Assembly (NCBI GenBank): GCA_002256245.1
Contig: NKIU01000016.1
Coordinates: 1 to 51,335 of the forward strand
DNA from: Pseudorhodobacter sp. PARRP1
Lineage (GTDB): Bacteria; Pseudomonadota; Alphaproteobacteria; Rhodobacterales; Rhodobacteraceae
Length of the DNA: 51,335 nt
Reading direction: 5' to 3'
Of this stretch, positions 7,715-51,255 are shown piece by piece. Each line of letters starts with the position of its first letter. Position 1 is the first letter of the stretch. The notes under the pieces were generated by a model. It was not told the origin of the DNA and ran no database searches. It worked only from the letters and a program-made list of their open reading frames with translations. The position numbers and the translations under genes are program-made.

Positions 7715-8376
7715 GCGTTCAGGGGCGGATCGGGGGCGCGGGCGGCACGAGGATCAAGCGCGCGCTGGGCGTGCAGGCGGCGCTGGAATGGGCATTCCGC
7801 GTGGAACAGGCGCAACTGGAACTGTCGCCAGCAAAGGGCGTAACCGAGGAGGGATTCGGCTTTGGCCTCGAATACGTCCTGCTGCAACGCGCCATGCTTG
7901 GCTGCAAAGTGGATGGCGGGCAGCACAAAATGGGCAGCTACATCCATCCCGACGCCGAAGTGATCGCGGCCACAGTCGCAGTCATGCCCGACTGCCTCTC
8001 CGGCATCCGCATGGCAATTCAGGTGGCCGAACTGGCGCGCGCCGCTTTGACCCCTAACTGGATGCCGGGCGTCGTCCCGCGCTGCGTCCCAATGGAAACC
8101 AAAAAAAACCAGCATGGTGAACGGGCGACAACCATTGTTGTGGGCACCGAGCGGGTGAAGACACGCGGCAAGTGGCGAACGGTCGAGGTGCTGGCTTGCC
8201 CGGTCACGTGGCGACCGCATCCAGAGCAGATTGCCTCCGCGCGGCGCGGGTATGACGATTGGTGGCAGGCGCTGGACTGGGTACGGGATGGGCTGATTGC
8301 TTGCGGGATGTTGCAGGACGTCGAGGTCACTGCCGCTATGCCGAGGGTGCAGCCGTGGCTGCGCCGATGTAGCTGA
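7711..8376 (+). CDS. Early-operon protein, unknown function
   Basis: The product is 221 aa, with its start overlapping the methyltransferase stop (ATGA). I recognise no domain. The sequence has a helical N-terminus with GVQAALEWAFRVEQAQLEL, a Gly-rich middle and a C-terminal YDDWWQALDWVRDGL segment. Codon use and translational coupling make it a real gene of the early operon. It is the last gene before the defence cassette, and an 86-bp gap follows. The call is hypothetical phage protein; being coupled to a methyltransferase is its only functional clue. Confidence 0.75.
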   Translation: MSVQGRIGGAGGTRIKRALGVQAALEWAFRVEQAQLELSPAKGVTEEGFGFGLEYVLLQRAMLGCKVDGGQHKMGSYIHPDAEVIAATVAVMPDCLSGIRMAIQVAELARAALTPNWMPGVVPRCVPMETKKNQHGERATTIVVGTERVKTRGKWRTVEVLACPVTWRPHPEQIASARRGYDDWWQALDWVRDGLIACGMLQDVEVTAAMPRVQPWLRRCS

Positions 8377-8462
8377 AAGCCCTTGAAACACGCTTAATGT
8401 CTAGATTTCAGCTTCTGGCTGAAATACGGTCCTGAAAAGTAGCTCCGGGGGCAGATTTACTA

Positions 8463-10000
<1,538 letters not shown>

Positions 10001-10004
<4 letters not shown>

Positions 10005-11284: not shown

Positions 11285-11292
11285 TTTAAGGT

Positions 11293-12318: not shown

Positions 12319-12363
12319 ACAAGCCCAGTTTTTAAGCATGTTGTTGGCTGAGGGAACGGAGTT

Positions 12364-15300
12364 ATGAGCATTCTGACCGAAGCCGAAGTCGAAGCCGTCC
12401 TACTCGAACACCTCGGGGCGCTGGGATATACCTGCATCAACGACGCGGTGTCGGGCCCGGATGGCCGCGCGCCTGAACGCGAAGCCTATTCTGACACTTT
12501 CCTGCCTGCTCGCCTGCGAGACGCAATCGCCCGGTTGAACAGACAGATCCCCGAAGACGCCCGCGAGGATGCGCTGAGAAGACTGCTCGGCGTCGAGCGC
12601 CCATCGCTGATCGAAGAGAACCGCCGCCTACACCGCGCCATGGTCGAAGGCGTGCCAGTAGAATACCGCGCGGAGGACGGCACGATCCGCGGAGATGCCG
12701 TGCGCCTGATCGACCCAGAAGACATGCAGAACGACTGGCTTGCTATCGCGCAGTTCACCGTGATCGAAAACGGCAATAACCGCCGCCCGGATGTGGTGGT
12801 GTTCCTGAACGGTTTGCCGGTCGGTGTGATCGAGGTGAAGAAGCCTGGCGCGGAAACCGCAACGTTGGGCGCGGCCTTCAACCAGTTGCAGACCTACAAA
12901 GCGCAGATCGGATCACTGTTTCGGGCCAATGCGGTGCTGGTCACGACAGACGGCATCCAAGCGCGCATCGGCTCCCTGACCGCCGACCGTGAGCGTTTCA
13001 TGCCTTGGCGCACGACCGATGGAGCCGATGTGGCCCCAAAGGGCGCACCTGAGATGTCGGTGTTGATCGAAGGGGTTTTCGCCCGTCCACGCTTGTTATC
13101 GCTGTTGCGAGATTTCACCGTCTTTGGCGACACCCCGAGTGGGATCGCCAAGATAATCGCGGGATACCACCAATTCCATGCCGTGAAGCGTGCCGTCGTA
13201 AGCACTGTGGAGGCTAGCCGGTCGCAGGGCGACCGCAAAGCTGGTGTAATCTGGCACACGCAAGGTTCGGGCAAGAGCCTGCTGATGGCATTCTATGCTG
13301 GTCAGCTGGTCCGTGAACCAGAGATGGAAAACCCCACGATCTTGGTGATCACCGACCGCAACGATCTGGACGATCAGCTGTTTGCGACATTTTCGATGTG
13401 CCGCGACCTGATCCGCCAGACCCCAGTGCAGGCCGACAGCCGCGAGGATTTGCAAAAGGTACTGGCGCGGGCTTCAGGCGGCGTCATCTTCACCACCATC
13501 CAGAAGTTCGCCCCAGAAAAGGGTGATGCCTATCCGATGCTGACCGACCGCCGGAATGTGGTCGTGATCGCCGATGAGGCTCACCGCAGCCAATACGGTT
13601 TCAAGGCCCGCATCGAGAAAACCGGGGTCATTGCCTACGGTTTTGCAAAGCACTTGCGCGACGCCCTGCCCAACGCCTCGTTCATTGGTTTCACGGGCAC
13701 TCCCATCGAGGCGACCGATGTCAATACCCCCGCCGTGTTCGGCGAATACATCGATGTCTATGACATCAGCCGCGCGGTAGAGGACGGCGCGACGGTGCCG
13801 ATCTATTACGAAAGCCGTCTGGCCAGGATCGAGTTGCCTGACGCGGAAAAGCCCAAGATTGACGCCGAAATCGAAGAGCTGACCGAGGACGAAGCCGCCA
13901 GCGAGCAGGAACGACTGAAGCGCAAATGGTCGACTGTAGAAGCACTTGTCGGTTCCGAAAAGCGACTGAACATGATCGCCGAAGATCTGGTCGCCCATTT
14001 CGAGGCCCGAGTGCAAGCTATGGAAGGCAAAGCCATGGTCGTTGGAATGAGCCGCCGCATCTGCGTGGATCTGTACAATCAGATCGTTGCTCTGCGACCG
14101 GAATGGCATTCGGACGATGATGCGAGTGGACTGATCAAGGTCGTGATGACTGGCTCTGCCTCGGAGCCAGAAGCCTGGCAGCCCCATATTGGCGGCAAAG
14201 CGCGGCGCGACCTGCTGGCCAAGCGCGCAAAGGATCCAAAAGACTCGCTCAAGCTGGTGATCGTGCGCGACATGTGGCTGACCGGCTTTGACGCCCCGTC
14301 CATGCACACGATGTACATCGACAAGCCGATGCGCGGGCACGGGCTGATGCAGGCCATCGCACGGGTGAACAGGGTGTTCCGCGACAAGCCCGCAGGTCTG
14401 ATTGTTGATTACATCGGCATTGCCCAGAACCTGAAATCCGCGCTGGGCCAGTATTCCAAATCGGACCAGGAACAAGCAGGTATCGACGAGGCCGAGGCGG
14501 CTTCGGCGCTTCTCGAACGACTGGACGTGGTGCGCTCCATGTTCCACGGCTGTGATTATTCTAAGGGCTTGACCGGTACACCGCACCAGCGCCTTGTGGC
14601 TTTGGCAGAGGCGCTCGACTGGATCCTCGCAAGGCAAGACGAAGCGGCGCAGCGGGAAACCGACAAGGATGCCAAAAAAGCAGCGTACCGGCGATATCAG
14701 GACGCAGTGTTGTCGCTGTCCAAGGCCTTTGCGCTCTGTTCGGCCAGCGATATCGCCCGCGAAGTCCGCGACGAAGTTGGCTTCTTTCAGACCGTGCGCG
14801 CCGCGATGGTCAAGGCGTCCGATACCTCTGGTCGATCCTCAGCCGACCGCGAACTTGCCATCCGCCAGATCGTGAACGGTGCAGTTGCCTCGACTGAAAT
14901 CGTGGACATTCTGTCGGCGGCCGGGCTGTCATCCCCAGACATTTCGATCCTATCCGACGAATTCCTAGCCGAAATTGGTCAGATGGAGAAAAAGAACCTC
15001 GCCCTTGAGGCGCTAAAAAAGCTCCTAAACGACGAAATCAGATCGCGCAGCCGGTCAAATGTGATTGAAACACGGAAGTTTTCTGAGCGGCTGGAAGAGG
15101 CGATTTCTCGCTATCACACCAACGCCATCAGTACCGTCGAAGTCCTGCAAGAGCTGATCGCCTTGGCGAAGGAAGTGCGCGAGGCTAGGAACCGGGGCCA
15201 AGAAACCGGGCTGACCCCGGAGGAGATCGCCTTCTACGACGCCTTGGCCGACAATCAGAGCGCCATCGATATCCTCGGCAATGACCAGCTGAAGATCATT

Positions 15301-15495
15301 GCCCATGAATTGCTGAAGGGCCTCAAAGCCAACGTTACCATCGACTGGGCTCATCGCGATAGTGCGCGGGCGCGCTTGCGGGTTCTCGTCAAACGCATCC
15401 TGCGGAAATACGGTTATCCGCCCGATCTGGAGGACGCGGCTGTTCGAGGGGTGTTGGCGCAAGCAGAAGCCTTGCTTTCAGAAATAGCGGCCTGA
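12364..15495 (+). CDS. hsdR: Type I restriction endonuclease/translocase subunit
   Basis: The product is 1043 aa; ATG 12364 follows CGGAG. The N-terminal HSDR_N nuclease domain has RPDVVVF (141-147) and GVIEVKKPG (154-162), the PD...ExK site. The motor has GSGKS (301-305, Walker A), [11 protein letters not shown] (DEAH box), GFTGTPIE (motif III) and [17 protein letters not shown] plus [20 protein letters not shown] (motifs V-VI). The C-terminal helical domain assembles with HsdM/HsdS. All motifs are intact, so restriction should be active. It is separated from its hsdM/hsdS partners by the SIR2-like gene. Confidence 0.96.
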
Positions 15496-15623
15496 CTCCC
15501 GCTGATACCAACATAACTTGGGAATGAATAATGCCTAACGTCCATGAAATTTCCACTCGTTCGGCACGACACTTCGAAAAAATTCTGGTGTTGAACACCC
15601 TCAATAGCAGAGAAATCTAACCG

Positions 15624-16889
15624 ATGAATGATACCGTATTCTGGTCTTGGCAGAACGATCTCCCGCCAAAAACCAATCGAAGCTTCCTTCGCGAGGCAAT
15701 AGCCATTGCAGTCGACCGGGTAAGTGCGGAACTTGATGTAGAGGATGTTGAGCGTGTTGAGCTTGACCATGACACCAAGGCATCGCCGGGCATGGCGGAC
15801 ATCAGCCAGACCATTCTGAACAAAATCGCCAAGGCTGCCGTCATGATCGCTGACGTCACTCCGATTGGCAGAACTGCTGCCGGAAAAGCTATTCCAAATC
15901 CGAACGTGATGGTAGAACTTGGATATGCCCTGCACGCACTCGGATTTGAACGCATCATAGCTATTCTAAACACAGCTGGCGGACATAGCGTGGAGGCACT
16001 ACCCTTCGACATTCGACACAGGCGAATACTGACCTATGAGTTGTCAGACGCTGCGACAAAAGACCAATTCAAAGCAGTACGCGAGAATCTGGTCAAGCAG
16101 CTCACCTTTGCCATTCAACTGAATATCAAGGACGTTCGCGACACGCGCTCTGCGGCAACACCGATTATGGGCGTAAAAAGCGATTCCAAATCTGCGGGCC
16201 TTTGGAATGCGGATTGGCCCGCGACCCATTCGGACGGATTCGGCGAAGTCGCTCGTGTTCGACCTCATGAACTATCGCGTGCTTGGTTGCGGATTATTCC
16301 TGACAACTACCCCAATGGTCGACCAGCCATAACTCAGCTTGACCAGCTTTCAGACAGCGCACGTCTTTGGGCGCCCTACGGCGCAGGGAACGGGGGCAAC
16401 TTTGGCTCCTGCGCCTTTGGTTATGTGACCTATTGGGTTGCGGGCAAGGACGAGGACGGAACGTGCAAGGCTCGAAACCTTGCCGCATTCTTGGAAGAAA
16501 CAGGTGAAGTTTGGATGTCAGATGGTGTCGCACTTACCGAGCACCAGAACCGGACACAGGTTTCCTACGCGCATCTGCTTTCAAGTTGGGCGCGCGGGAT
16601 GGACCAAGGGATGGCCTGCCTTGACGCACTCGGTGCATCAAAGCGCCGACGCGTGGTCATGGGGATTGAGGGCATAGCCGATGCCGTTTGGCACATCCAA
16701 AGTGGTTATCCCCTAGCACGCTCGCGAAAGCCTGACATGGTAATCGATGAAACAGATCGAGAATGGCCACCCGAGCGTCGGCTGCGGTTCTTGCGCAACG
16801 GCTGGAACAAGCTGAGAGATGCATTCAGCATGGAACCGATGAGCGACGAAGATTTTGCAAGGTACCACGAAGTGCGTCGAAGGAGCTAA
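15624..16889 (+). CDS. TIR/deoxyribosyltransferase-like nucleotide-binding protein
   Basis: The product is 421 aa. Residues 1-150 have a Rossmann-like layout: a first strand VFWSWQND, then ADISQTILNKIAKAAVMIADVTP (59-80), then NPNVMVELGYALHALGFERIIAIL (92-115). This order resembles TIR-like and nucleoside 2-deoxyribosyltransferase folds, where the Glu of VELG (98) would be the catalytic acid. Residues about 160-421 are an unassigned C-terminal domain rich in Trp and Arg. The gene starts 128 bp after hsdR on the same strand with a weak ribosome site. Its place between hsdR and another atypical gene suggests a defence effector, perhaps NAD- or nucleotide-consuming. The function is inferred. Confidence 0.7.
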   Translation: MNDTVFWSWQNDLPPKTNRSFLREAIAIAVDRVSAELDVEDVERVELDHDTKASPGMADISQTILNKIAKAAVMIADVTPIGRTAAGKAIPNPNVMVELGYALHALGFERIIAILNTAGGHSVEALPFDIRHRRILTYELSDAATKDQFKAVRENLVKQLTFAIQLNIKDVRDTRSAATPIMGVKSDSKSAGLWNADWPATHSDGFGEVARVRPHELSRAWLRIIPDNYPNGRPAITQLDQLSDSARLWAPYGAGNGGNFGSCAFGYVTYWVAGKDEDGTCKARNLAAFLEETGEVWMSDGVALTEHQNRTQVSYAHLLSSWARGMDQGMACLDALGASKRRRVVMGIEGIADAVWHIQSGYPLARSRKPDMVIDETDREWPPERRLRFLRNGWNKLRDAFSMEPMSDEDFARYHEVRRRS

Positions 16890-17011
16890 GAGGCGGATGC
16901 AATTGGCTCGACGTTCTACGAGTCGTCCTTAGACGGGATACGATGAAAGCGCGCGGCACTGCTACTGAACTTTGACTGAACAACACAGCTTAGAATTGAG
17001 GACGGTTTGGC

Positions 17012-18256
17012 GTGGCAATGACCGGAACAGGAAGAGGTGACGCGGACTTCGGTGGAGCGACGCGGAAGGTGATCCAGGAACGCGCAGCATATCGTTGCGT
17101 CGTACCGGGTTGTGTCGCCATTACGGTCGGACCGGGTGCAGCCGCAAACCAGACCGCTTCGACAGGCACGGCCTGCCATATCTATTCTGCTGCGACGAAT
17201 GGGCCACGAGGTAGAGGTGGATTGTCCGACGAGCAGCTGAGCAGCCCCGAAAATGGAGTCTGGGCATGTGCCACGCACGGTAGGCTCATCGACACCAATG
17301 CCGGAGATGCCTATCCCGCAACGCTTCTCCGTTCTTGGAAAGCACTGCAGGAGGCTCAGATCAAACGCGCGCGCGACGGCCAGCCTACCCACCTAGGCTG
17401 GCTCGATGAGATTAAGGCTGACAAGACGGTCTTGTTCAAGAATGGCTCCGTGCTTAGCCTGGGACAACTGACCTTGATACAGGGTCCGGCCTTGGGGAAG
17501 ACCGCACTTTGCGACTGGATTGCAGCATCGCTAGGTTCCAAGTTATCAGATCGCTGGATTAGCAAAAACTCCCTCATCCTAACATCGCTCACCGCCTTTG
17601 TTCCCGAAAAACGGGTGATTACCGCACGGATCACGGAAGCTGGACTTAGTGCAAAAATTGATGGCGCGGACTGCGCTGAAATCCCAGCGACTGTTGCTTG
17701 CATCTATATTCGTGAAGGCAGTCGCAGTTGGTCGAAAGATGAGGACGACGACGCACTGCTCGGCAGGTTGTTCGCAGTCGATCCTGGTGTAATCCGCCAG
17801 CTCATCTTTGATATCCAAAGGTGCGGAAGCGATTGGGGGCGCGAGATCGCCTTTTATCGCGAGCCGCGCTTGGATGGGCATGACGAGGATGGCGAGGAAA
17901 TCTACTCTACGCACAAGAGTGAATGGGTATTGCGCTTCGGCGGCTCGAAAGGCGTCACAATGCGGGCTTTGTCGGGCAGTGAATCCGCACGGCTACTGAT
18001 AGAATTCGGCGCCGCACTCGCGCGCGAACGGTCGAGCCATATGCCGGCAATATTGCTTCTTGACGGAAGCGAATGGCCATTCGACCGAGTCACAATGGAT
18101 CAATATGGCAAATTCTTATCCACCCAGCCCTTTCAAACGGTGATGACCAAAGTAGGAGGCTGGAGCCCCAAAGATCCGGCTTGCTGGAAGGAGTGGAAGC
18201 GTTACGAACTCCGCAGCGAAGTGGGTAGCGCTGAAATCGTGGAAGTGTGCTGGTAG
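17012..18256 (+). CDS. HNH-like zinc domain fused to P-loop-like domain
   Basis: The product is 414 aa from GTG 17012, preceded by GAGGA. Residues 20-120 match an HNH-like nuclease or degenerate zinc domain: RCVVPGC (C29, C34), TACHI (H56), then GPRGRGGLSDEQLSSPENGVW (N81), C86, H89, LID (D94) and a closing LLRSWK helix. Residues 150-165 have LTLIQGPALGKTAL, a P-loop-like motif that is one residue shorter than the standard Walker A, and AILLLDGSEW later is Walker B-like. An ATPase coupled to a nuclease is a usual plan for phage defence. Third-position bias is weaker than in phage genes, consistent with imported cargo. It is last in the defence cassette. The function is unproven. Confidence 0.65.
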   Translation: MAMTGTGRGDADFGGATRKVIQERAAYRCVVPGCVAITVGPGAAANQTASTGTACHIYSAATNGPRGRGGLSDEQLSSPENGVWACATHGRLIDTNAGDAYPATLLRSWKALQEAQIKRARDGQPTHLGWLDEIKADKTVLFKNGSVLSLGQLTLIQGPALGKTALCDWIAASLGSKLSDRWISKNSLILTSLTAFVPEKRVITARITEAGLSAKIDGADCAEIPATVACIYIREGSRSWSKDEDDDALLGRLFAVDPGVIRQLIFDIQRCGSDWGREIAFYREPRLDGHDEDGEEIYSTHKSEWVLRFGGSKGVTMRALSGSESARLLIEFGAALARERSSHMPAILLLDGSEWPFDRVTMDQYGKFLSTQPFQTVMTKVGGWSPKDPACWKEWKRYELRSEVGSAEIVEVCW

Positions 18257-18429
18257 GGAGTCGACTTTTTCTGCAAACACACGCTACCGCAATCAGAGTC
18301 GCCCGGAGAGCTTTGAACGGCAGCAGCGAGCTGGTAGACACACGCCCCCCTGGCATGGTTCCTCCCCGGCCCTGTTTGTATGCAGGGGGGCGCAGCGCGG
18401 CACTTCGCTAGCGGAAGGCATTTTCACCG

Positions 18430-18597
18430 GGGAATCCAGGCGGAAGCCACCTGCCGGACCAGCTTTGGAAAATCGACTCAGGATCAAAGACTTACGGAAT
18501 CACGATCTGGCCGTGCTGGATTCTTTTGTGGAATCCAGGGAATCCAGTTTGTGGAAGCCACTACGCCGGAAGCCAGCAAGCGGAAGCCACCTGCCGG
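18430..18597. repeat. Interspersed GGAATCCAG / GGAAGCCAC repeats
   Basis: CGGAAGCCACCTGCCGG occurs identically at 18441-18457 and 18581-18597. GGAATCCAG occurs at 18431, 18530 and 18539, the last two in tandem, and shorter GGAAGCCA units occur at 18553 and 18568. The cluster is confined to this intergenic stretch. A protein-binding region (operator or packaging/partition-type site) is possible. Confidence 0.55.
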
Positions 18598-18675
18598 GAA
18601 GTCATTGAATCCGCGTGCATTTTTTTGCTTGACAAAGCTGCTCCTCTTGACCTACCCCTTGATCATTGAAGAATT

Positions 18676-18707
18676 GCGCCCGGAGGATACCCCTCGCGGG
18701 CGCTTTT
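18676..18707 (+). terminator. Rho-independent terminator
   Basis: GCGCCCG (18676-18682) pairs with CGGGCGC (18697-18703), followed by TTTT. It could end transcripts from the defence cassette or act as an attenuator ahead of the ParB-methyltransferase genes, which start 90 bp downstream. Confidence 0.6.
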
Positions 18708-18796
18708 CATTTCCCCACATCGCGGATCCCGATCCTGACGCTGGCCCGATTGGGCGGCGCGCATTGGCATTCCCGCCCTGCCCGAGAGTTCCCCCA

Positions 18797-20056
18797 ATGG
18801 ACCTGGTCTTCGCGCCGAGCCAGATCGAGACCTGGCCGCTCGACCGGCTGCGCCCCTATGCCCGCAACGCCAAGACCCACGGCACGGACCAGGTGGCCAA
18901 GATCGCTACCAGCATGGCGAAGTTCGGCTGGACCGTGCCCTGCATGGTGGCGGACGATGGCGAGCTGATCGCCGGGCACGGCAGGGTTCTGGCCGCTGCC
19001 ATGCTGGGGCTGAAGGATGTGCCGGTGATCCGGCTGAGCCACCTCGACGAAGCCGAGCGCCGAGCGTACCGTATCGCCGACAACAAACTGACTGAGCTCG
19101 GCGAATGGGACGAGGCCATGCTGCGCGACGAAATCGCGGGGCTGTTGGCCGAAGATTTCGACCTGTCGCTGCTGGGGATCGCCGACGAGGATCTGGACGC
19201 CCTGCTGCGCGATCCGGATCAAGCGGAAGGCGGCGCGGTCGAAGGCGAAGATGACATCCCCGAACCGCCGGTCACGCCGGTGTCGGTCGCGGGCGACCTT
19301 TGGCAACTCGGATCGCACAGACTGATTTGCGGCGACAGCACCTCGGCCGAGGTTGTCGGGCGATTGCTCGGCGATGTGAATCCGCTCTTGATGGTGACCG
19401 ACCCGCCCTACGGCGTGGAGTATGATCCCTCCTGGCGCAACCAAGCCGGGGCCGCCAAGACCAAACGCACCGGCAAGGTGCTGAATGATGACAGGGCAGA
19501 TTGGCGGGAGACGTGGGCACTGTTCCCCGGCGACGTGGCCTATGTCTGGCACGGCGCGCTGCATGCCACGACGGTGGCCGAGAGCTTGGTGGCGGCAGGT
19601 TTTGCCGTACGGTCGCAGATCATCTGGGCCAAGGACCGGCTTGTGCTCAGCCGCGGCGACTACCACTGGCAGCATGAACCCTGCTGGTATGCTGTCAAAA
19701 AGACCGGCAAGGGACATTGGGCGGGGGACCGGAAGCAAACCACCCTCTGGCACATTTCCGGCAAGGACCAGGACGCCGCCACGGTCCATGGCACGCAAAA
19801 GCCGGTCGAGTGCATGCGTCGCCCCATGCTGAACAACTCCAGCCCGGGCCAAGCGGTATATGAACCCTTTATGGGATCTGGCACCACGCTGATCGCGGCG
19901 GAAACCACCAGGCGGGTTTGCTTCGGGATCGAGTTGAATCCGGCATACGTCGATGTGGCAATCGAGCGCTGGCAGCAGTTCACCGGCGCGAACGCTATCC
20001 TGGCAGATACCGGCGAGACCTTTGCCGACTTGAAGGCCAAGAGGCTGGCGGCATGA
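18797..20056 (+). CDS. ParB-like nuclease/DNA methyltransferase fusion (N6-adenine type)
   Basis: The product is 419 aa from ATG 18797; the open frame extends upstream but only this start gives the family N-terminus. Residues about 10-100 are a ParB-like domain (LRPYARNAKTHGTDQVAKIA, GELIAGHGR, YRIADNKLTELG). The methyltransferase part has WQLGSHRLICGDS, DPPYGVEYD (202-210, beta-class motif IV) and YEPFMGSGTTLIAAE (AdoMet motif I). It is an orphan methyltransferase with no cognate nuclease, typical of phages, which could protect DNA or modulate host expression. It overlaps the next gene by ATGA. All motifs are intact. Confidence 0.93.
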   Translation: MDLVFAPSQIETWPLDRLRPYARNAKTHGTDQVAKIATSMAKFGWTVPCMVADDGELIAGHGRVLAAAMLGLKDVPVIRLSHLDEAERRAYRIADNKLTELGEWDEAMLRDEIAGLLAEDFDLSLLGIADEDLDALLRDPDQAEGGAVEGEDDIPEPPVTPVSVAGDLWQLGSHRLICGDSTSAEVVGRLLGDVNPLLMVTDPPYGVEYDPSWRNQAGAAKTKRTGKVLNDDRADWRETWALFPGDVAYVWHGALHATTVAESLVAAGFAVRSQIIWAKDRLVLSRGDYHWQHEPCWYAVKKTGKGHWAGDRKQTTLWHISGKDQDAATVHGTQKPVECMRRPMLNNSSPGQAVYEPFMGSGTTLIAAETTRRVCFGIELNPAYVDVAIERWQQFTGANAILADTGETFADLKAKRLAA

Positions 20057-21396
20057 ACGCACCCCTTTCACCCAAGCAGATCGAATACTGGCCGCTCACC
20101 CAGTTGAAGCCCTATGCCCGGAATGCCAAAACCCACGACGCCAATCAGGTGGCCAAGATCGCCGCCAGCATGGCTGAGTTCGGCTGGACAGTTCCGGTAC
20201 TGGTCGCCGCAGACGGCGAATTGATCGCTGGCCACGGCCGCATAATGGCGGCGGCGCATCTAGGACTGGCTGAGGTCCCGGTCATCGTGCTGGGCCATCT
20301 GACCGAAGCCCAGCGCCGGGCTTATCGCGTCGCCGACAACAAGTTGACCGAGTTGGGTGGCTGGGACGATGCCCTGTTGCTGCAGGAATTGCAGGCGCTG
20401 CTGGCCGAGGATTTTGACCTCGGGCTGATCGGGATCCCGGAGGATGTACTGGACGCCCTCCTGAACGCGGGCGACGACGACAGGACGGTGATCGACGACA
20501 ATGAAGCCGATGCCATCCCGGAACCGCCCGCTGAACCGATCACGAGGCCGGGCGACATCTGGGCGCTGGGCAAGCATCGGCTGTGCTGCGGCGATGCCAC
20601 CGATCCGGCCGCCGTCACCAGGCTGATGCAGGGCGAACAAGCCACGCTGATGTTCACCTCGCCGCCCTATGCCCAGCAGCGCGACTACGGGGCGGCGAAG
20701 GAAAAGGTCGGCGATTGGGATGCGCTGATGCAGGGCGTGTTCGCCGCAGCGCCGGTCACAGCGGACGCACAGGTCCTGGTCAACCTCGGCCTCGTGCATC
20801 GCGACAGCGAATGGCAGCCCTATTGGGAAGGATGGGTCGAATGGATGCGCGCCTCTGGCTGGCGACGGTTTGCCTGGTATGTCTGGGATCAGGGGCCGGG
20901 CCTGCCGGGAGATTGGAACGGCCGCCTGGCCCCATCGCACGAGTTCATTTTCCACTTCAACCGCGCGCCGCGCAAACCGCACAAGACCATCCCGTCCAAG
21001 CACGCGGGCGAAACCCTCGGCGGCGGTGGGTTGCGCGGGGCCGACGGCACAGTCCACGCCAAGACCGGCACCGGCAACGCGATCCAAAGCCATCGTATCC
21101 CGGATAGCGTCTTCCGCATTATGCGGCACAAGGGCGGGCTGGGTACAGCCGGATCGCATCCGGCGGTGTTTCCGGTGGCGCTGGTCGAGGCAGTCCTGAC
21201 AGCGTTTTCGGATCCGAGCGATCTGATCTATGAGCCGTTCTGCGGCTCAGGCACCCAAATTGTCGCTGCCGAACGTTCTGGGCGGCACTGCTTTGCGATG
21301 GAACTGGACCCGGTCTATTGCGACGTGGCCGTGCGGCGGTGGGAGATCGCAACGGGGCGGAGTGCGAAGAATTCTTACCGTGATCTGAAGCGCTAG
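20053..21396 (+). CDS. Second ParB-like/DNA methyltransferase fusion (SPPY type)
   Basis: The product is 447 aa, starting at the ATG that overlaps the previous stop. It is a tandem paralogue of its upstream neighbour: the ParB-like N-terminus is closely similar (LKPYARNAKTHDANQVAKIA, GELIAGHGR, YRVADNKLTELG). The methyltransferase domain has TSPPYAQQRDYG instead of DPPY, then YEPFCGSGTQIVAAE. An SPPY motif is typical of N4-cytosine methyltransferases, so the pair probably modifies two different bases or targets. Divergence is concentrated in the middle (about residues 200-370), where the target-recognition region would lie. Confidence 0.93.
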   Translation: MNAPLSPKQIEYWPLTQLKPYARNAKTHDANQVAKIAASMAEFGWTVPVLVAADGELIAGHGRIMAAAHLGLAEVPVIVLGHLTEAQRRAYRVADNKLTELGGWDDALLLQELQALLAEDFDLGLIGIPEDVLDALLNAGDDDRTVIDDNEADAIPEPPAEPITRPGDIWALGKHRLCCGDATDPAAVTRLMQGEQATLMFTSPPYAQQRDYGAAKEKVGDWDALMQGVFAAAPVTADAQVLVNLGLVHRDSEWQPYWEGWVEWMRASGWRRFAWYVWDQGPGLPGDWNGRLAPSHEFIFHFNRAPRKPHKTIPSKHAGETLGGGGLRGADGTVHAKTGTGNAIQSHRIPDSVFRIMRHKGGLGTAGSHPAVFPVALVEAVLTAFSDPSDLIYEPFCGSGTQIVAAERSGRHCFAMELDPVYCDVAVRRWEIATGRSAKNSYRDLKR

Positions 21397-31243: not shown

Positions 31244-31875
31244 AGATCGACGTAAGCTTCACCTCCGACCTCATAGCCCTGATGCGCGCCGAGGTAGCGG
31301 CGGGGCAGAAGGCCGTTTCGGTCACCATGGCACAAGCCGGGACCAGCCTCAAATCCGCCTGGCGGGCGCAGATCACCGGCGCGGGTTTGGGCCAACGGCT
31401 CGCCAACACCATCCGGTCGCAGACCTATCCGAAGGGCCGCAACAGTCTGGATGCCGCCGCCCTTGTCTGGTCCAACGCGCCGATAATCATCGGCGCGCAT
31501 GACACCGGCCCCTTGATCCGCTCGGGCAGTGGCTTCTGGCTCGCCATTCCGCTGCCCGCCGCTGGCAAGGCGCAGGGAGGCAAACGCATCACGCCGGGCA
31601 TGTGGGAGCAAAAGACTGGCCTGCGCCTGCGCTTCGTCTATCGCAGCCGGGGGCCGAGCCTGCTGGTGGCCGATGCGGCGCGGCTGAACACGCGTGGGCA
31701 GGCAGCCGTTTCCAAGTCGAAAACCGGGAGGGGTCAGGTGACGGCACCGATCTTCCTGCTGGTGCGGCAGGTGAAACTGCCGAAACGGCTTGATCTGGCG
31801 AGGGATGCCGAACGTGCACAGGCCGGAGTGCCCGGGATGATAGTTACGAACTGGGTGGAAGATTTAGTTGGCTGA
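31240..31875 (+). CDS. Tail-completion-like protein (DUF6441-type, gpZ position)
   Basis: The product is 211 aa. The N-terminal helix with KAVSVTMAQAGTSLKSAWRAQI, a conserved ANTIRSQTYP and the C-terminal FVYRSRGPSLLVADAARLN fit the DUF6441 family of phage proteins. It lies where lambda encodes Z, the minor tail protein that completes the tail end before head joining. Its TGA overlaps an ATG that begins a vestigial MTSKR frame (31875), just before the DAC-like insertion. Confidence 0.75.
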   Translation: MKIDVSFTSDLIALMRAEVAAGQKAVSVTMAQAGTSLKSAWRAQITGAGLGQRLANTIRSQTYPKGRNSLDAAALVWSNAPIIIGAHDTGPLIRSGSGFWLAIPLPAAGKAQGGKRITPGMWEQKTGLRLRFVYRSRGPSLLVADAARLNTRGQAAVSKSKTGRGQVTAPIFLLVRQVKLPKRLDLARDAERAQAGVPGMIVTNWVEDLVG

Positions 31876-31999
31876 TGACTTCTAAGCGGACCGAGTTTGC
31901 GTTTGCCGAATCCGATTCAGTATCAGATTTCAAGCGCTCCGGATCGCGCAAACAATCACTAGGACCGAACATGCCAAGTAGACAAAACCACCGAAAAAA
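31876..31999. other. Left border of the DAC-like insertion
   Basis: This stretch begins with the vestigial ATG and codons for MTSKR that overlap the upstream stop, then loses coding similarity and becomes AT-rich. It marks the left junction of inserted DNA. No gene is supported here; the open frame to 32105 is biased like the insertion and not like a phage gene. Confidence 0.5.
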
Positions 32000-33172
32000 T
32001 TACAGAATAAACGACTCGGCATTCTTTATCGAAACAACAGAGCCATGCTTATCAGACCAAAACTGCCAAGTTATTGGGCCGTCCTCTGAAACTGTAATTA
32101 CGTGAGACTTTCGCATGTCATATGCGAATTGAGAGGACGATTGGTGACGCATACCGCCGACCTCACTAATTGGCTTCAAAGAGAGATTGTCGTGCAGTCG
32201 CCAGCTCGAGTCCGTTACAGAAACTTTTGAGATCAAGTTGCTTGAATCACGCGGCCTTAGCTTCGCCCCAAAAGCCAAAATATTGAAATCCTTGTCCAAA
32301 ATCGTCGCACCATCAACTCTTGACGCTGTCGCTATATCATTCACTAGGTTGGAGCTTCTAAATTTCACTATCTTGTTTTTGAAGCGAGACAGTCTGTTAT
32401 TTGAAGCGTGGCCACTTGTAGTTATATTGAACTTACTTCCTTTAGAGGTGGCTAAACGCCAGTCCGTGTCTACTGCCAGAATAACTATAGCCCCCCGCTG
32501 ATATAAATATATCCTCTTTAATATTTCGCTGAACGCTCGCAGCCGGAACTCCAGAGAATCTGCGGCAAGCCCTGCATTGAACACCCTCCAATCGGAATGC
32601 TCGTAAACTCGAAGAAAATTCGGCAACCAGAGCGTTCTCGTTCGCGTCAAGAACGCTATTCTATCAATGAGGTCCTTGTTAAAACTAAAATCGACAGAAA
32701 GGGTGCCCGGGCGCAGCGATGACAGAACAAAAGTCGGCCGACTAGTATCTCCTACGCCAATGATCCTGAACTCACCGGATACGATCGAAACTAAGATTGC
32801 TTTTCGCGTAGGCAAGATAGCAGGAGCCAATTTAGATATTGTCTTAGGATCAAGAGTTAATGGCATCTCAAATCGGTCGATAAAATCTGGGTGACAGAGA
32901 TGGTCTGGATGGTACTTGACCACAAAAGGAAACGATCTTCCTTCATCTTGTTCCAAAGAACCCAGAAAAGCCGCCTGTATTGCCGAGCCCACAAGAGGGC
33001 TTTTTAGGAGTTTGTCCTCACTACAACCCTTCATCTTCTTCAATATCTGCGCTTCACACGCGTCGATGATTTCTGGGTTGGCCCGTAAGAATTCTTCCTC
33101 CAGCACCCTTCCAAATTTCCAGAAATCTTCTGAGAAATCGATTTCGGATGTACCTTCTTTTGATCGGCTCAT
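32000..33172 (-). CDS. DAC/DisA-like domain protein (moron), possible cyclic-dinucleotide role
   Basis: The product is 390 aa from ATG 33172, preceded by GGAG; a longer frame upstream has no ribosome site. Residues about 1-190 are unassigned. From about 200 the pattern fits the diadenylate-cyclase fold: LRAFSEILKRIYLYQRGAIVI, then DGA (287-289) with TILDKDFNILAFGAKL, then GGMRHQSSSQFA (RH at 342-343) and VITVSEDGPI. DisA uses DGA and RHR motifs to bind ATP; here RHR is RHQ, so the activity could be altered or sensory, as in DAC-related domains of bacterial conflict systems. The gene is AT-rich and antisense to the tail operon, typical of a moron. Confidence 0.7.
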   Translation of the reverse strand: MSRSKEGTSEIDFSEDFWKFGRVLEEEFLRANPEIIDACEAQILKKMKGCSEDKLLKSPLVGSAIQAAFLGSLEQDEGRSFPFVVKYHPDHLCHPDFIDRFEMPLTLDPKTISKLAPAILPTRKAILVSIVSGEFRIIGVGDTSRPTFVLSSLRPGTLSVDFSFNKDLIDRIAFLTRTRTLWLPNFLRVYEHSDWRVFNAGLAADSLEFRLRAFSEILKRIYLYQRGAIVILAVDTDWRLATSKGSKFNITTSGHASNNRLSRFKNKIVKFRSSNLVNDIATASRVDGATILDKDFNILAFGAKLRPRDSSNLISKVSVTDSSWRLHDNLSLKPISEVGGMRHQSSSQFAYDMRKSHVITVSEDGPITWQFWSDKHGSVVSIKNAESFIL

Positions 33173-33372
33173 CTTTGCTCCAGAATGTGGACCACCATAG
33201 GCCTCGTATGGGCCTTTGGGACAATTTTCATAGTAGCAAGAACTCTCCGTCCTACAATATTGTTCTAGTCGCCCGTTCTGCCCGATTGATCCGGACCCTT
33301 GCCACAAGTCCGAGCAATGAGAAAGTTGGGATCACTGCGGTCGTTGGCTAGCCATCAAGTTTGGAATGACCA
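33173..33372. other. Right border of the DAC-like insertion
   Basis: 200 bases lie between the insertion's start codon and the tail gene. The segment must contain the minus-strand promoter of the DAC-like gene. No clear -35/-10 pair could be chosen. The frame of the DAC-like gene is open through most of it but has no coding signature. Confidence 0.45.
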
Positions 33373-33795
33373 ATGACAAGTAAACGCGAGACCATCCTTG
33401 CCACCCTTCACGCGCGGTTGCAGACCCTTCCCGCCCCAGTGCTGCGCGGAGAGGTGCTGCCAGAACGCATTCCGGCCACTGGCATGATCATTCTGCGCGA
33501 TGGCAAACCGGGCGAGCCGGAGGTGACGCTGTCGCCGCTGACCTATTTCTACGAGCACCGGGCCGAGCTGGAGGTGGTGATCCAGGCAGGGACAGGTCGC
33601 GACGCCCTGTTCGATGCACTAGCCGCGTCTGTCGGAGCAGTGCTGGCGGCCGATCGCACGTTGGGCGGCCTCTGCGACTGGGTCGAAGCGGAGGCACCCG
33701 AACCGGTTGATCTGCCCATCGAAGGAGCGGCGGCGCTGAAAGCCGCCGTGATCGTCGTCATCCTGCATTACGCGACCGGCGACACGCTGGTCTGA
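33373..33795 (+). CDS. Tail terminator-like protein (gpU position)
   Basis: The product is 140 aa. The pattern (ETILATLHARLQTLPAPVLRGEVLPERIPATGMIILRDG, then EHRAELEVVIQAG, RDALFDALAASVGAVL and VEAEAPEPVD) matches the small phage proteins in the gpU position that cap the tail tube and set tail length; they are often misnamed acyl-CoA transferases. It starts MTSKRE, the same five residues as the vestigial frame at 31875. It is flanked on both sides by minus-strand insertions. Confidence 0.8.
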   Translation: MTSKRETILATLHARLQTLPAPVLRGEVLPERIPATGMIILRDGKPGEPEVTLSPLTYFYEHRAELEVVIQAGTGRDALFDALAASVGAVLAADRTLGGLCDWVEAEAPEPVDLPIEGAAALKAAVIVVILHYATGDTLV

Positions 33796-33804
33796 GACAC
33801 GAAA

Positions 33805-34230
33805 TCAGCAGGTTTGGTAGTAATCGCGGGAGTAACGGCAGTATTCCGTCGCCACGCCCATGCGGATCATTTCCGCTGCAATGTCGCGCCCATCCGGCAG
33901 GAAACACTGGGCAACGATGCGGTGGTACCGGTCGATATCGCGAACCTGGCACTCAAGCGTCTTCCCGCTGACCAAACCGCGCATGGCGCGCGTGGCCTCA
34001 GTGCCGCCCACCTGTTTGCGCTCCGGCGCATCCAGACCCCAGACACGGATTGCGGGGTCGAGCCCCGACAGATGGAAGGTATCGCCGTCCGTGACGCGGC
34101 TGACCTTTCCCGAAACAGAACTGGTCTCTGCGGCAAGGGGCCTCGCAAGAACCATGCTCACGGCCATCAGGAAGACGGGCGCGATGCGTCGGCCGAAGCA
34201 AAGTGAGGCGACGAGGAATTCTCTGATCAT
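33805..34230 (-). CDS. Secreted SNase-like nuclease (moron)
   Basis: The product is about 141 aa from ATG 34230 (ATG 34233 is equivalent); AAAGG lies just upstream. It starts with a signal peptide (REFLVASLCFGRRIAPVFLMA, then MVLARPLAAETSS). The mature part is a staphylococcal-nuclease-like fold: KVSRVTDGDTFHLSGL, RVWGLDAPERKQVGG, then CQVRDIDRYHRIVAQCFL, ending at MGVATEYCRYS. The Asp, Glu and Arg positions of the family active site appear present. It lies antisense between the tail-terminator and tail-tube genes. An exported nuclease could degrade incoming DNA in the periplasm (superinfection exclusion); this is inference. Confidence 0.85.
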   Translation of the reverse strand: MIREFLVASLCFGRRIAPVFLMAVSMVLARPLAAETSSVSGKVSRVTDGDTFHLSGLDPAIRVWGLDAPERKQVGGTEATRAMRGLVSGKTLECQVRDIDRYHRIVAQCFLPDGRDIAAEMIRMGVATEYCRYSRDYYQTC

Positions 34231-34300
34231 CATCAGACCTTTAATCATCATGGCGGCGTTGGCAACCCGCTGAAGTTCCACTTTTTTGCAGGAGAAAGAC

Positions 34301-35572
34301 ATGGCACGTGCGCAAGGAGCGCGGGCGCAGATGGCGCTTGCGTTCGAGACTGTTTACGGCACCCCACCAGGGGCCGGTTTCACCCAAATGCCCTTCATCA
34401 CCTCATCACTTGCAGCCGAACAGCCGCTGCTGGCCTCGGAGCTGCTGGGCTATGGCCGCGATCCCCGCGCGCCCTTGCTGGATGCGATCACCACGGATGG
34501 CGATGTGGAAGTGCCTATCGACGCGGTGGGCTTCGGCTTCTGGCTGAAGGCAGCGTTCGGGGCTCCGACCACGGCTGGCGCGGTGGCCGCAACGGGAGCG
34601 ATCACGTTTTCGGTCCAGCCCGCCGTCAACTCGACGCTGACGATCAACGGGACCCTGTTCACCTTCGTGGCCTCGGGTGCTGTCGGCAACCAGGTCAACA
34701 TCGGTGCCAACCTGGCGGCGACCATGACGGCGCTGGCCGTGGTGCTGAACGCCAGCGTCGTCGCCGGGGTGCTGCTAGCCACCTACACCGGCACGGCGAC
34801 GGCGCTGACCATGGTGTTCGACGTCCTCGGCACCACGGGGAACACCTTCACACTGGCGGCGTCGATCTCGCCCGCGTCCAATGGCACCGTATCGGCAGCG
34901 ACCCTGACCGGCGGGTTGAACGCCCACACGTTCATGTCAGGCAGTTGGACCCTGCCTAGCATGTCCATCGAAGTCGGCATGCCGGAAGTACCGCGCTTCG
35001 CCATGTATTCTGGCTGCGTGCTGGACTCCCTCTCGTGGCAAATGGAGCGATCTGGCATTCTTGGTGCCAAGGCCATGCTGGTCGCACAGGGCGAGACCAT
35101 CGCAGCAGCGACCGCCGCTGGAACACTCGCAGCCATCGCCCTGAAGCGCTTCGGCCACTTCAACGGGGCGATCAAACGGGATGGCGTGGCGCTGGGCAAC
35201 ATCGTCTCCGCCGACCTGACCTATGCCAACAACCTCGACCGGATCGAGACGATCCGCTCGGATGCCAAGATCGACGGGGCGGACCCCACCATCGCTGCCC
35301 TGACCGGCAAGATTGAGGTGCGCTTCGCCGACACCACCCTTCTGACGCAAGCAATCAACGGCACCGCTGCGGCTTTGGAGTTCAGCTATGTGCTGGGCAG
35401 CGGCGAGAGCCTGACGCTCACCGCGCATGCGGTCTATCTGCCTCGCCCGCGTATCGAGATCAAAGGCCCGAAAGGCGTGCAGGCGTCCTTCGATTGGCAA
35501 GCCGCATTGGCCACGAGCCCGGCGCGGATGTGCACCGTAGTGCTGGTCAACAACTTGGCAGGATACCCATGA
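34301..35572 (+). CDS. Tail tube protein (gpV-like)
   Basis: The product is 423 aa from ATG 34301 with GGAG upstream; a TTG at 34286 is also open but less likely. The N- and C-terminal parts carry the tail-tube layout (AQMALAFETVYGTPPGAGFTQMPF, then FNGAIKRDGVALGNIVSADLTY and VYLPRPRIEIKGPKGVQ). The middle (about 85-220) is an inserted Ala/Thr/Val-rich beta domain (FSVQPAVNSTLTINGTLFTF), resembling Ig-like additions on phage tubes. The length exceeds a minimal tube because of it. It overlaps the next gene by ATGA. Confidence 0.85.
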   Translation: MARAQGARAQMALAFETVYGTPPGAGFTQMPFITSSLAAEQPLLASELLGYGRDPRAPLLDAITTDGDVEVPIDAVGFGFWLKAAFGAPTTAGAVAATGAITFSVQPAVNSTLTINGTLFTFVASGAVGNQVNIGANLAATMTALAVVLNASVVAGVLLATYTGTATALTMVFDVLGTTGNTFTLAASISPASNGTVSAATLTGGLNAHTFMSGSWTLPSMSIEVGMPEVPRFAMYSGCVLDSLSWQMERSGILGAKAMLVAQGETIAAATAAGTLAAIALKRFGHFNGAIKRDGVALGNIVSADLTYANNLDRIETIRSDAKIDGADPTIAALTGKIEVRFADTTLLTQAINGTAAALEFSYVLGSGESLTLTAHAVYLPRPRIEIKGPKGVQASFDWQAALATSPARMCTVVLVNNLAGYP

Positions 35573-48215: not shown

Positions 48216-48902
48216 TTAGCTAGGTTGATCCTTGGGCAGGCCCTCCAACATTCGTCGCGCCATGTTTGGGCTCACTCGGCCCGCCATGGCGCGCACCTGT
48301 TCGAGGTGGCATTTCCTGAGCCGTCTGCCGCTGCCACAAGGGCAGACATGGTGGCCCTTGTGATGCTCCCTCGCCAACACTGCTAGATGGTCTCGTACCA
48401 AATCAAGCCTCGGGGCAACGCCTAGGACGTCAGCGAAGGCCTCGACCACTCCTTGAATGCCATGTGAACGCTGTCCGTACGGCCAGTCGGCGTGCATCTC
48501 GAAATAAGTCTGACTCTCAAAGTAGGATTGGAGCGGGCTGCTCATGAAATCTGCCACGGTGTGCGACGGTGCGCAGATCAACCATTCTTCCCAGACACCC
48601 AGGCAGCAGTTCCCGTCCTTTGGGAATACATGGCGGTCAGCAGTGCGCGGCACTCGTGAGGCCACCTCCCAAACCAAGGGCTCGACGTTCGGAAAGCCCG
48701 GCAAGAACACCAGCAGGACGTCATAGACGTCGAACCACGCCCCGGTCGGTCCCACTAGAAGCTTACCCTCGACGACAATCATGTCCTTGTGGACACGCGC
48801 CGCAAGCTCGGGTTGCTCGACCACGATGTAGGCCAGCACCTCATTCAAGATGTCGTTTAGGCGATCAATGATGCCTACAGCAGGCGGTGTTACCTTGCCC
48901 AC
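48216..48902 (-). CDS. E2/UBC-fold protein with SEC-C motif, CBASS-associated
   Basis: The product is 228 aa. Residues about 40-115 fit a bacterial E2-like fold: GAWFDVYDVLLVFLPGFPNVEPLVWEV, RVPRTADRHVFPKDGNCCLG, where the His and the Cys99/100 pair lie as in E2 active sites. The C-terminus has a SEC-C metal motif, CPCGSGRRLRKCH (187-199). It overlaps the CD-NTase gene by 13 bp. In type II CBASS loci, E2-like proteins attach to and prime the CD-NTase; here no E1 or JAB gene is present, as in short type II systems. The SEC-C extension is unusual. Role by analogy. Confidence 0.75.
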   Translation of the reverse strand: MGKVTPPAVGIIDRLNDILNEVLAYIVVEQPELAARVHKDMIVVEGKLLVGPTGAWFDVYDVLLVFLPGFPNVEPLVWEVASRVPRTADRHVFPKDGNCCLGVWEEWLICAPSHTVADFMSSPLQSYFESQTYFEMHADWPYGQRSHGIQGVVEAFADVLGVAPRLDLVRDHLAVLAREHHKGHHVCPCGSGRRLRKCHLEQVRAMAGRVSPNMARRMLEGLPKDQPS

Positions 48903-49975
48903 GGCTGAGATGCGCCGCCCGCGCCTTGACGTGCATCGACTGCCGACTGCAGGCGCTCGGCCCGCTCTGACTGAGCCATTGCCGCCACCGCCGACGAAAT
49001 TAGCGCTGGCGCTGCCAGTCCAGCCGCCTTCACCTCGGGGGCGCGCATTCCGTTTGATGTATTCGCCTCGTCGAAGAAGCTGTGGCGGAACACCTTCTTC
49101 CAGGCCTTTCTTGCTTCGGCGGGTGTGCTGTTGTCACCGATTGCAGCAAGCGCCGCCACCGCATCCTTTGCCGCGTCGGCAAGGCGCCGAACCCTATCCA
49201 CGTCACGGTCGCCAGAAACCACAACGCCGTTCGCGCTCACCGGCAGTTGTTCGGACCGACGCGAGAGAGCAACAAGGGTCTGGTAGATCGATTCGTCGTC
49301 GCGCCCGTCAGCCGGTACATAACATTCGACGGCAAGGGCGGTCGCGACAAGTCCAGCCGGAAACTTCAGGCCCGTTCGAAATGCGTGGACCTTGGCAAAG
49401 TACTTTACCAGTCTGGTGACGCGGCGAAGCTGATAGCTTCCTTCGGTTTCGGGGCTGAGTGTGCGCACACGCTCGTGGAACCAAGCGTTGATCGCCAGCG
49501 GATCAGACGCCACCCATTCATCGCTGATTGCAATCTCGTAGCTGTATCTGTCGCCATTTAGTTTTCGGCGGAAAACCGGGAAATCACACTGGTAGCCGTC
49601 GGCGTACTCTACCCTAACACATTTGGGCTTCGCCTCGGGGGCGTACTTGAGGTTCGTCGCATTTCTGGCGATTGCGTCTCTCACCCAGCCCTTAGTTGTG
49701 CGTGGCGTCAGAGTGTCGTCGGCGTTGAATACCACGCCCATGTCAATGTCATACTGGCTGTCTTCGTTGCCCTCTGGGGGATGCGTCATCGTCTTCATGG
49801 CGTTGCCGCCTTGGTTGATCGTTTCGACCAATGCCGGCTTGCCCATCTCTGCAAGGCCAGCGACGATCCTGTCGCAGTTGAGGTCCCTCCGACGGGTCAT
49901 GTCACCCCTCTGGACCTCAGACAGGCGAACGCGGTCGCGGTGAAACTTGGAAACTTCGGCCGAAAAATCATACAT
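48890..49975 (-). CDS. CD-NTase (cGAS/DncV-like nucleotidyltransferase)
   Basis: The product is 361 aa from ATG 49975; a GTG nine bases earlier is possible. It starts MYDFSAEVSKFHRDRV, as DncV-like proteins do. The nucleotidyltransferase site is QGGNAMKTMT (55-64), YDIDMGVVF with D76 and D78, and CDFPVF with D131. SEQ-like helical segments follow (NAWFHERVRTLSPETEG, LRRVTRLVKYFAKVHAF). It should make a cyclic oligonucleotide upon phage infection and activate the effector encoded divergently. The C-terminal 40 residues are Ala-rich and end beside the E2-like gene, which it overlaps. Confidence 0.9.
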   Translation of the reverse strand: MYDFSAEVSKFHRDRVRLSEVQRGDMTRRRDLNCDRIVAGLAEMGKPALVETINQGGNAMKTMTHPPEGNEDSQYDIDMGVVFNADDTLTPRTTKGWVRDAIARNATNLKYAPEAKPKCVRVEYADGYQCDFPVFRRKLNGDRYSYEIAISDEWVASDPLAINAWFHERVRTLSPETEGSYQLRRVTRLVKYFAKVHAFRTGLKFPAGLVATALAVECYVPADGRDDESIYQTLVALSRRSEQLPVSANGVVVSGDRDVDRVRRLADAAKDAVAALAAIGDNSTPAEARKAWKKVFRHSFFDEANTSNGMRAPEVKAAGLAAPALISSAVAAMAQSERAERLQSAVDARQGAGGASQPWAR

Positions 49976-50066
49976 CTTGCGCACCCAGCAGAATCAAAGT
50001 CTAAAGGTGGGGGAATGCGATGGATCGTGCAAGGGGCAAGGCCGAAAAAGAATCGGGGAACGAAAT

Positions 50067-50819
50067 ATGTATCCGTTGCTGCCATGGAAGCTCATCTCGA
50101 CCGCGCTAGGTGCCGCCATCGCTTTGGCGGTCTATGCCGACGACCTGGCGAAAATGATCGGTTATTCGCTGCCTGAGAGCCTGGTGGTCCGATACCTCCC
50201 CTTGGCAATCCTGACATTCGTTGGGCTATTCTTTGGCCCGACTGGGTATTGGTCGCCTTGGCGCATCGTTTGGCGGACCGTTCCACCCCTCAATGGGTGG
50301 GCGTTTCCAGACTTGAACGGTGTCTGGGTTGGCAGAACCAAGTCGAACTGGCCAATAATTGAGAAAGCCTACGATGCTGCAACGTCCCATCGTTCGGTCA
50401 CCGAAGCCGAACTGTATGGCATACCGCTCAAGGAAGACGCGATTGCGGTCTCAATCAGATGTTCCCTGTTTACGCTGAAGATCAAGGTCGCCACATCAGC
50501 CACAGACGGCGAGTCCCATTCCATTGCGGCACGACCCAGCCGCGACTCGTTGACAGGTTGCTTGCATGTGATCAACGTTTATCGGCAATCTGTTCCCGAT
50601 CCGGCCAGGACGGACGAGCCTGTCCATCTTGGGGCGGCCGACTTGAAAGTTGATCCAGAAGAGCCGGAGCAGATAAGCGGCGAGTACTGGACGCGGCGAG
50701 TGTGGCGGACCGGAAAGAACACTGCTGGCAAGATCGAACTGCGACGGTTGCCGAGTGAGCAGTTGAATGGAAGGACGCTTCGTCAGTTTGCTGCGAACGA
50801 GAAGAAGCGTATTTCGTGA
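50067..50819 (+). CDS. Two-TM beta-rich effector (Cap15-like)
   Basis: The product is 250 aa from ATG 50067 with GGGGAA upstream. Two hydrophobic helices lie at about 7-24 and 40-58 (LISTALGAAIALAVYAD and LPLAILTFVGLFFGP), followed by a soluble beta-rich domain beginning LNGWAFPDLNGVWVGRTKSNW. The Gly-x-Trp-x-Gly start of a small beta-barrel is characteristic of Cap15/S-2TM-beta effectors that bind cyclic nucleotides and disrupt the inner membrane. It is transcribed divergently from the CD-NTase and E2-like genes with a 91-bp gap, where most CBASS operons are collinear. Confidence 0.82.
   Translation: MYPLLPWKLISTALGAAIALAVYADDLAKMIGYSLPESLVVRYLPLAILTFVGLFFGPTGYWSPWRIVWRTVPPLNGWAFPDLNGVWVGRTKSNWPIIEKAYDAATSHRSVTEAELYGIPLKEDAIAVSIRCSLFTLKIKVATSATDGESHSIAARPSRDSLTGCLHVINVYRQSVPDPARTDEPVHLGAADLKVDPEEPEQISGEYWTRRVWRTGKNTAGKIELRRLPSEQLNGRTLRQFAANEKKRIS

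Positions 50820-51178: not shown

Positions 51179-51255
<77 letters not shown>

Follow-up and report, generated by a model that had tools for sequence, protein, structure and literature searches.

What is an AT-rich gene with motifs of diadenylate cyclases (DACs) doing on the opposite strand of a prophage tail operon, and what might it give to the lysogen? The window, by which we mean the whole 51,335-nucleotide stretch that was analysed, corresponds to a complete contig of the assembly, and the gene within it is real, intact and highly divergent, lies in a prophage cargo slot, and encodes a DACNV domain followed by a DAC domain, the latter with the predicted fold and the conserved active-site residues of DACs. 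Our best reading, which we hold at roughly even chances, is that it encodes a sensor-gated cyclic-dinucleotide synthase of the prophage, carried as defence-type cargo.

A divergent DACNV-DAC protein encoded in a prophage

The gene starts with an ATG at 33172, with a ribosome-binding-like GGAG just 5′ of it, and stops at 32000, the frame being intact over 390 codons. Its GC content is 45.4%, against 65% in the genes on either side, which bears out its original description as an AT-rich minus-strand gene amid tail genes. A consensus scan, whose reach does not extend beyond sigma-70-like promoters, found no such site on the minus strand of 31600–34500, and no partner effector gene adjoins the gene. 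Its parts are as follows:

32000–33172, minus strand: DACNV-DAC gene, 390 residues (ORF list, Pfam, predicted fold, GGAG upstream)
32753–32992, minus strand: DACNV domain, a probable sensor, residues 61–140 (Pfam PF21751)
32024–32563, minus strand: DAC domain, about residues 204–383, limits set by eye from the model (fold matches to DisA and CdaA)
32306–32314, minus strand: DGA motif, residues 287–289 (translation, alignment)
32138–32155, minus strand: GMRHQS motif, residues 340–345, inside GGMRHQSS at 339–346 (translation, alignment)
32081–32089, minus strand: SED motif, residues 362–364, inside VSEDG at 361–365 (translation, alignment)

The three motifs on which the original prediction was built, DGA, GGMRHQSS and VSEDG, are thus where it had placed them. 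Its statement that the N-terminal domain is unassigned does not hold, as this part contains the known Pfam domain DACNV, with a score of 34.5 bits (cut-off 27). The profile search that had been proposed therefore came out positive for DACNV but negative for DAC, since PF02457 reaches only 20.2 bits (residues 267–313; cut-off 27); the same model also stays below threshold in two scanned DACNV relatives, at 16.1 and 21.2 bits. As for the features of DAC membership, DGA is present, and the full RHR is absent, with RHQ in its place and the R-H retained. Neither PADLOC nor NCBIfam contains a family that matches the 390-residue protein, and PHROGs returned a single family of unknown function at E 0.14. 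DACNV has siblings with names such as DACNG, DACNH and the like; its description is reportedly owed to Burroughs in 2015 or Galperin in 2023, and the name DACNV was absent from the literature that we searched.

A structure model was predicted from a 45-row alignment (pLDDT 77.5, pTM 0.76; residues 1–25 and 253–272 below 50) and searched by fold against the PDB. All of the best 50 matches listed are diadenylate cyclases (DisA, CdaA, DacA and CdaM), and the 14 of these at E ≤0.001 are all DisA, the best at 1.3e-4. Target-normalised TM scores reach 0.62, while query-normalised scores are 0.28 at most, a low value that arises because the DAC half alone matches. A sequence search of the PDB with the protein gave no match, a search with the profile of the A3 alignment of relatives (see below) gave one diadenylate cyclase without significance (E 0.99), and a fold search of BFVD gave zero matches at E ≤0.001. 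The DAC-like fold that had been predicted is thereby supported, and a chance match of the motifs is ruled out by the DACNV score together with the predicted DisA/CdaA-type fold.

Conservation of the active site among relatives

A scan of genome contigs yielded 49 DACNV-DAC relatives, from Acidobacteria, Gemmatimonadetes, Desulfobulbaceae and kin, Bacteroidetes and others. Alignment A3 holds 44 of these 49 loci, two (L034 and L068) having been dropped by a motif filter and three (L058, L059 and L076) as short; another search gave 27 relatives, of which 18 went into alignment A1. The filters used in picking relatives required DG and RH, and for the 49-locus set also S/T/A/C-x-D/E-G, so the counts that follow lean toward conservation. 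D287, G288, A289, G340, R342, H343, S362 and D364 are invariant in all 44 A3 relatives, and the two loci that failed the filter still keep DGA, RH and S-x-D. The active-site Asp, Arg-His, Ser and acidic residue are therefore kept in 46/46 relatives examined, 44 of them motif-filtered. The two results named beforehand as counting against the prediction, a model with no DAC fold and relatives in which DGA and RH are not conserved, did not occur.

According to PMC7288161, DGA and RHR occur in every known DAC class, and both are important in catalysis. For the ATP site of CdaA the same paper names the side chains of Leu31, Asp71, Thr102, Arg103, His104, Ser122 and Glu124; the third residue of RHR is not among the ten ATP-site residues listed there. 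By motif rather than by superposition, D287, R342, H343, S362 and D364 correspond to Asp71, Arg103, His104, Ser122 and Glu124 of that list. Four of the seven side chains are unchanged in the window protein, with Asp replacing Glu124, Ile replacing Leu31 and Met replacing Thr102. At residue 363 the protein has the Glu of classical SEE motifs, a position at which DACNV relatives have Gln.

The RHQ had been presented as a departure from the enzyme motif. In A3 the residue after RH is L in 25, Q in 11, R in 4, I in 3 and M in 1 of the 44 relatives, so that Q is the second commonest, and in the separate set of 27 relatives it is N, S, T, A or G, with R in L002 alone (the same sequence as L078 of A3). 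Since the third residue varies among relatives, RHQ is ordinary in the DACNV-DAC family, and we rejected it as the mark of a special enzyme.

Other positions set the protein further apart. Near-invariant residues are replaced at R222 (Y; R in 41/44), H224 (Y; H in 43/44), A285 (R; A in 44/44) and T341 (M; T in 42/44), identity to the A3 relatives is 17–25%, and the tree branch is 3.69 against a median of 0.3. The sister in the tree, L038, is unsure (80/72), the tree program warning of long-branch attraction and of unusual composition. Near the DACNV-DAC gene of L038, on the opposite strand at 5829–9173, lies a TPR-CHAT protein. The very long branch and the substitutions at near-invariant positions mean that enzyme activity may be lost or changed.

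Compared with the chromosomal DACNV-DAC proteins (PF21751 plus PF02457), the window protein has the same two domains in the same order, a similar length, and DGA, RHx and S-x-D; it differs in its low identity, its very long branch, Glu at 363, the loss of R222 and H224, and its prophage setting. It shares with DisA, CdaA, CdaM and DacA the predicted fold and, by motif, most of the ATP-binding residues, but has RHQ for RHR, SED for SEE, Met for Thr102, and a DACNV domain in front.

These differences leave room for a DAC domain that binds a nucleotide and makes no signal, the protein being a receptor or a decoy. Such a binder would fit the replaced conserved residues next to the GALI-like strand, the change at T341, the RHQ, the long branch and the DAC score below cut-off. 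However, the ribose- and phosphate-binding residues are kept by motif except for Thr102, and Glu at 363 agrees with the classical SEE where relatives have Gln; we consider a binder unlikely.

A variable cargo slot in the tail region

The gene stands alone between two phage genes:

31240–31875, plus strand: left flanking phage gene, phrog_6367 (PHROGs)
31876–33372, no strand: cargo insert between the two phage genes (empty relatives of the junction)
33373–33795, plus strand: right flanking gene, tail terminator, phrog_4204 (PHROGs)

Across 81 related places the slot is filled in 57, empty in 14 and unread in 10. Among 50 IMG/VR relatives of the left flanking gene, 33 are filled, 12 have the two genes abutting and 5 are unread; in the ten empty viral junctions printed, the stop and start of the flanking genes share one base. 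The filled viral slots (n = 33) have inserts of 654–2439 bases. The remaining 31 distinct places, in genomes of the bacterial family, comprise 24 filled, 2 empty and 5 unread; these 31 are the places looked at among the matches, with twice-fetched places counted once and the window's own excluded. One of the two empty places, L170, belongs to a sister copy of the tail genes in the window's own genome, and its flanking proteins are 91% and 86% identical to those of the window. The comparison of empty with filled slots upholds the prediction of a single-gene prophage moron, and the DACNV-DAC gene is absent from close relatives, foreign in composition and on the opposite strand.

The genome holds two more tail-gene sets, probably prophages, on G000:C27 near 198799 (L171) and 238597 (L170); the L171 slot carries a 2-kb insert. 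Another small slot follows the tail terminator and precedes the tail gene after it (33805–34302, minus strand); it holds a staphylococcal-nuclease homologue that recurs in 1/50 viral loci (L090, 81% identical). Immediately left of the insert, at 31875–31889, the start of a short ORF, MTSKR, resembles the tail-terminator start at 33373 in other codons, and is perhaps a remnant of an older junction.

The cargo is highly varied. The 57 filled places gave 69 insert sequences, 12 places being represented by two each; the sequences fall into 36 nucleotide clusters, GC is below that of the surroundings in 69/69, and none of the 69 resembles the DAC insert. We scanned 59 ORFs of at least 90 residues from the 33 filled viral slots, with at most 25 families listed per scan. 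PADLOC matched pVip (viperin; 8.6e-82), AbiEi, AbiEii, UzuA twice and RmrA, in addition to three weak mad1 matches; pVip in L100, AbiE in L108 and UzuA in L131 were assigned from their sequences. When ten cargo proteins were scanned singly, 6/10 had no PADLOC family, and a seventh, from L120, had only a partial match, to PD-T4-5 in a separate PADLOC scan. With that match counted, six other viral slots (five kinds) hold PADLOC-matching genes. Among the Pfam families listed, ParE occurs in four, ParD in two and PIN in two, while cargo of a non-defence kind includes LysR, HxlR, globin and cupin genes and genes for peptidoglycan-binding proteins. We read the slot as a hypervariable mixed cargo site with a visible share of defence and toxin–antitoxin genes. 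It resembles the defence hotspots of P2 and P4 phages (PMC9122126) in being a fixed phage locus with exchangeable antiviral genes, but the phage group is different and so is the position, which here lies between the phrog_6367 gene and the tail terminator. Among the literature matches listed, which include PMC9122126 and PMC12429752, this slot was not recognisable in the text available.

PF21751 was found in 2/385 genomes of the class and in 44/398 of a phylum sample, the window's own genome included; its one match in that genome is the DACNV-DAC gene. The 390-residue protein matched its own genome only, among 390 genomes of the order and 15 of the genus. PF02457 has matches in 7/385 class genomes, 6 of them above cut-off. 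It has none in the window's own genome at E 0.001, although the same search was positive in 11/14 control genomes; since it misses the window gene itself, an equally divergent second DAC could be missed too. One weak DAC match elsewhere in the class (L139) was set aside, being below cut-off and without significant similarity to the window protein (E 0.68).

In phages and plasmids, tblastn with the window protein and with its relative L002 found nothing, and neither did IMG/VR scans with the protein, with A2 and with A3, which work by short peptide patterns plus a comparison with the divergent window protein and could miss distant viral members. A phage-borne DACNV-DAC therefore looks new in these collections, and no phage-borne DAC was evident in the titles and opening lines of abstracts found in a literature search on prophage- or phage-encoded diadenylate cyclases and c-di-AMP.

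We also scanned neighbours of the chromosomal relatives (104 of 181 ORFs, picked by length, some of which may not be genes). Among the best 25 of 130 families, FtsH-type (4/104) and AcrB-type (3/104) proteins are the commonest, and no defence family occurs in at least two of the 104. These neighbours, together with the regulators and globins in other slots, would suit a moron of host fitness, in which a cyclic dinucleotide tunes how the lysogen copes with osmotic, envelope or other stress and has no bearing on phages. Against this stand the PADLOC-matching genes in the six other viral slots, and the lack of a DAC-model match in the host genome at E 0.001, which makes a ready-made c-di-AMP response doubtful even though a divergent DAC would escape that search. 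A host-fitness role is decidedly improbable on this balance, and an exclusion or defence role is plausible from the slot's other cargo.

The CBASS genes of the prophage and the proposed function

The element is a prophage of ~51 kb with an integrase (2844–4292), terminase, portal, major head protein and tape measure; 11 of the 15 phage records that match its left flanking gene are Rhodobacter phages, at ~50% identity, which makes a Rhodobacter-like host likely. As had been claimed, it also carries CBASS genes, a CD-NTase and a Cap15-type receptor, which lie 15.7 kb from the DACNV-DAC gene and, like it, between the two copies of a 17-bp repeat:

267–283, plus strand: 17-bp repeat, left candidate attachment site (repeat search)
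51209–51225, plus strand: 17-bp repeat in tRNA-Met (51179–51255), right candidate attachment site (repeat search)
48890–49984, minus strand: CBASS CD-NTase (PADLOC Cyclase 1e-88; Pfam DncV-like; PDB 7ljo CD-NTase 4.3e-14)
49947–50819, plus strand: Cap15-type cyclic-dinucleotide receptor (Pfam PF18153, 39.2 bits, cut-off 31.2)
48216–48902, minus strand: SEC-C protein next to the CD-NTase; by eye it may be E2-like (SEC-C motif)

The GG...DID motif of the CD-NTase was seen by eye, and a stricter pattern search found none. The Cap15-type protein, which probably starts at residue 41, has two hydrophobic stretches. The CD-NTase occurs in one of 198 genomes of the bacterial family, its own, and none was found in viral contigs.

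Elsewhere in the window, 8463–18256 holds type I restriction–modification genes interspersed with a SIR2-like (ThsA-like) gene. After these come a gene with a weak TIR-like match and an HNH gene that is related, over about its first 125 residues only, to SAVED-HNH effectors. At 18380–21396 one type II methyltransferase model, PDLC03229, is matched by two adjoining genes, a duplication or a pair.

The gene had been put forward as a possibly undescribed exclusion or defence factor, but a DAC in phage defence is already on record: PMC13092281 reports DS-2, composed of a phospholipase, a cGAS and a DAC, in which defence is lost on mutating either of two predicted catalytic DAC residues. According to that paper, no DAC had been validated in phage defence before DS-2, 15/30 DAC homologues lie beside CBASS, and Galperin 2023 is cited for the DAC–CBASS link. 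Like DS-2 as described there, the element in the window combines a DAC-type protein and a CD-NTase; it differs in that the DAC is alone, outside the CBASS operon and 15.7 kb from the CD-NTase, where a Cap15-type receptor replaces the phospholipase. The original interpretation as a whole is thus partly supported.

A coupling of the DACNV-DAC protein to the CBASS genes of the same prophage is possible. In its plainest form, the protein would be a second cyclase whose product acts with the CD-NTase and the Cap15-type receptor, as in DS-2. The presence of all three in one element and the precedents of DAC with CBASS in PMC13092281 speak for such a split CBASS, but the modules are far apart and in different places, the CD-NTase is confined to its own genome among the 198 of the family, and no CD-NTase family occurs in at least two of the 104 neighbour proteins of relatives (best 25 of 130 families). 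We regard it as very unlikely. A more elaborate form borrows from Panoptes (PMC12657218), in which a constitutive cyclic dinucleotide restrains a Cap15-like effector. Like OptSE, the window's genome has a cyclic-dinucleotide synthase (here putative) and a Cap15-like receptor; unlike the window gene, OptS is an mCpol domain in an operon with OptE, and the listed PDB matches of the window model are DACs, with no mCpol assignment. It would take something close to a leap to propose a two-cyclase immune circuit in trans, in which the DACNV-DAC dinucleotide primes or, Panoptes-like, restrains the Cap15-type membrane receptor beside the CD-NTase, the receptor being triggered when a phage depletes or degrades cyclic dinucleotides.

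That the gene is a passenger passing through with no selected function is hardly credible, for while the lower GC of 69/69 inserts suggests a steady foreign inflow and the tree branch is long, the frame is intact over 390 codons and the catalytic residues are kept.

We return to the sensor-gated synthase carried as defence-type cargo. Weighing against it are the replaced near-invariant residues, the very long branch, RHQ where PMC7288161 has RHR, the DAC score below cut-off, the absence of a recurrent defence family among the listed neighbours of chromosomal relatives, the non-defence cargo in other slots, and the lack of an adjoining effector gene or of a sigma-70-like site. The prophage would carry the DACNV-DAC gene, antisense to its tail operon, as a lysogenic-conversion (moron) gene. 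We infer that in the lysogen the N-terminal DACNV domain would receive a sensor input, arising from infection or stress, and would gate the C-terminal DAC domain; that catalysis there would join two ATP, or a related NTP, into a cyclic dinucleotide; and that this product, through a receptor, would act as a signal that harms competing phages, the outcome being defence.

The slot is a practical lead, as one recognisable site with 36 insert clusters and some known defence genes. The protein itself, a free-standing prophage DACNV-DAC in a genome without a DAC-model match, would provide a clean setting for the input of the DACNV domain, the product of the enzyme and the reader of that product.
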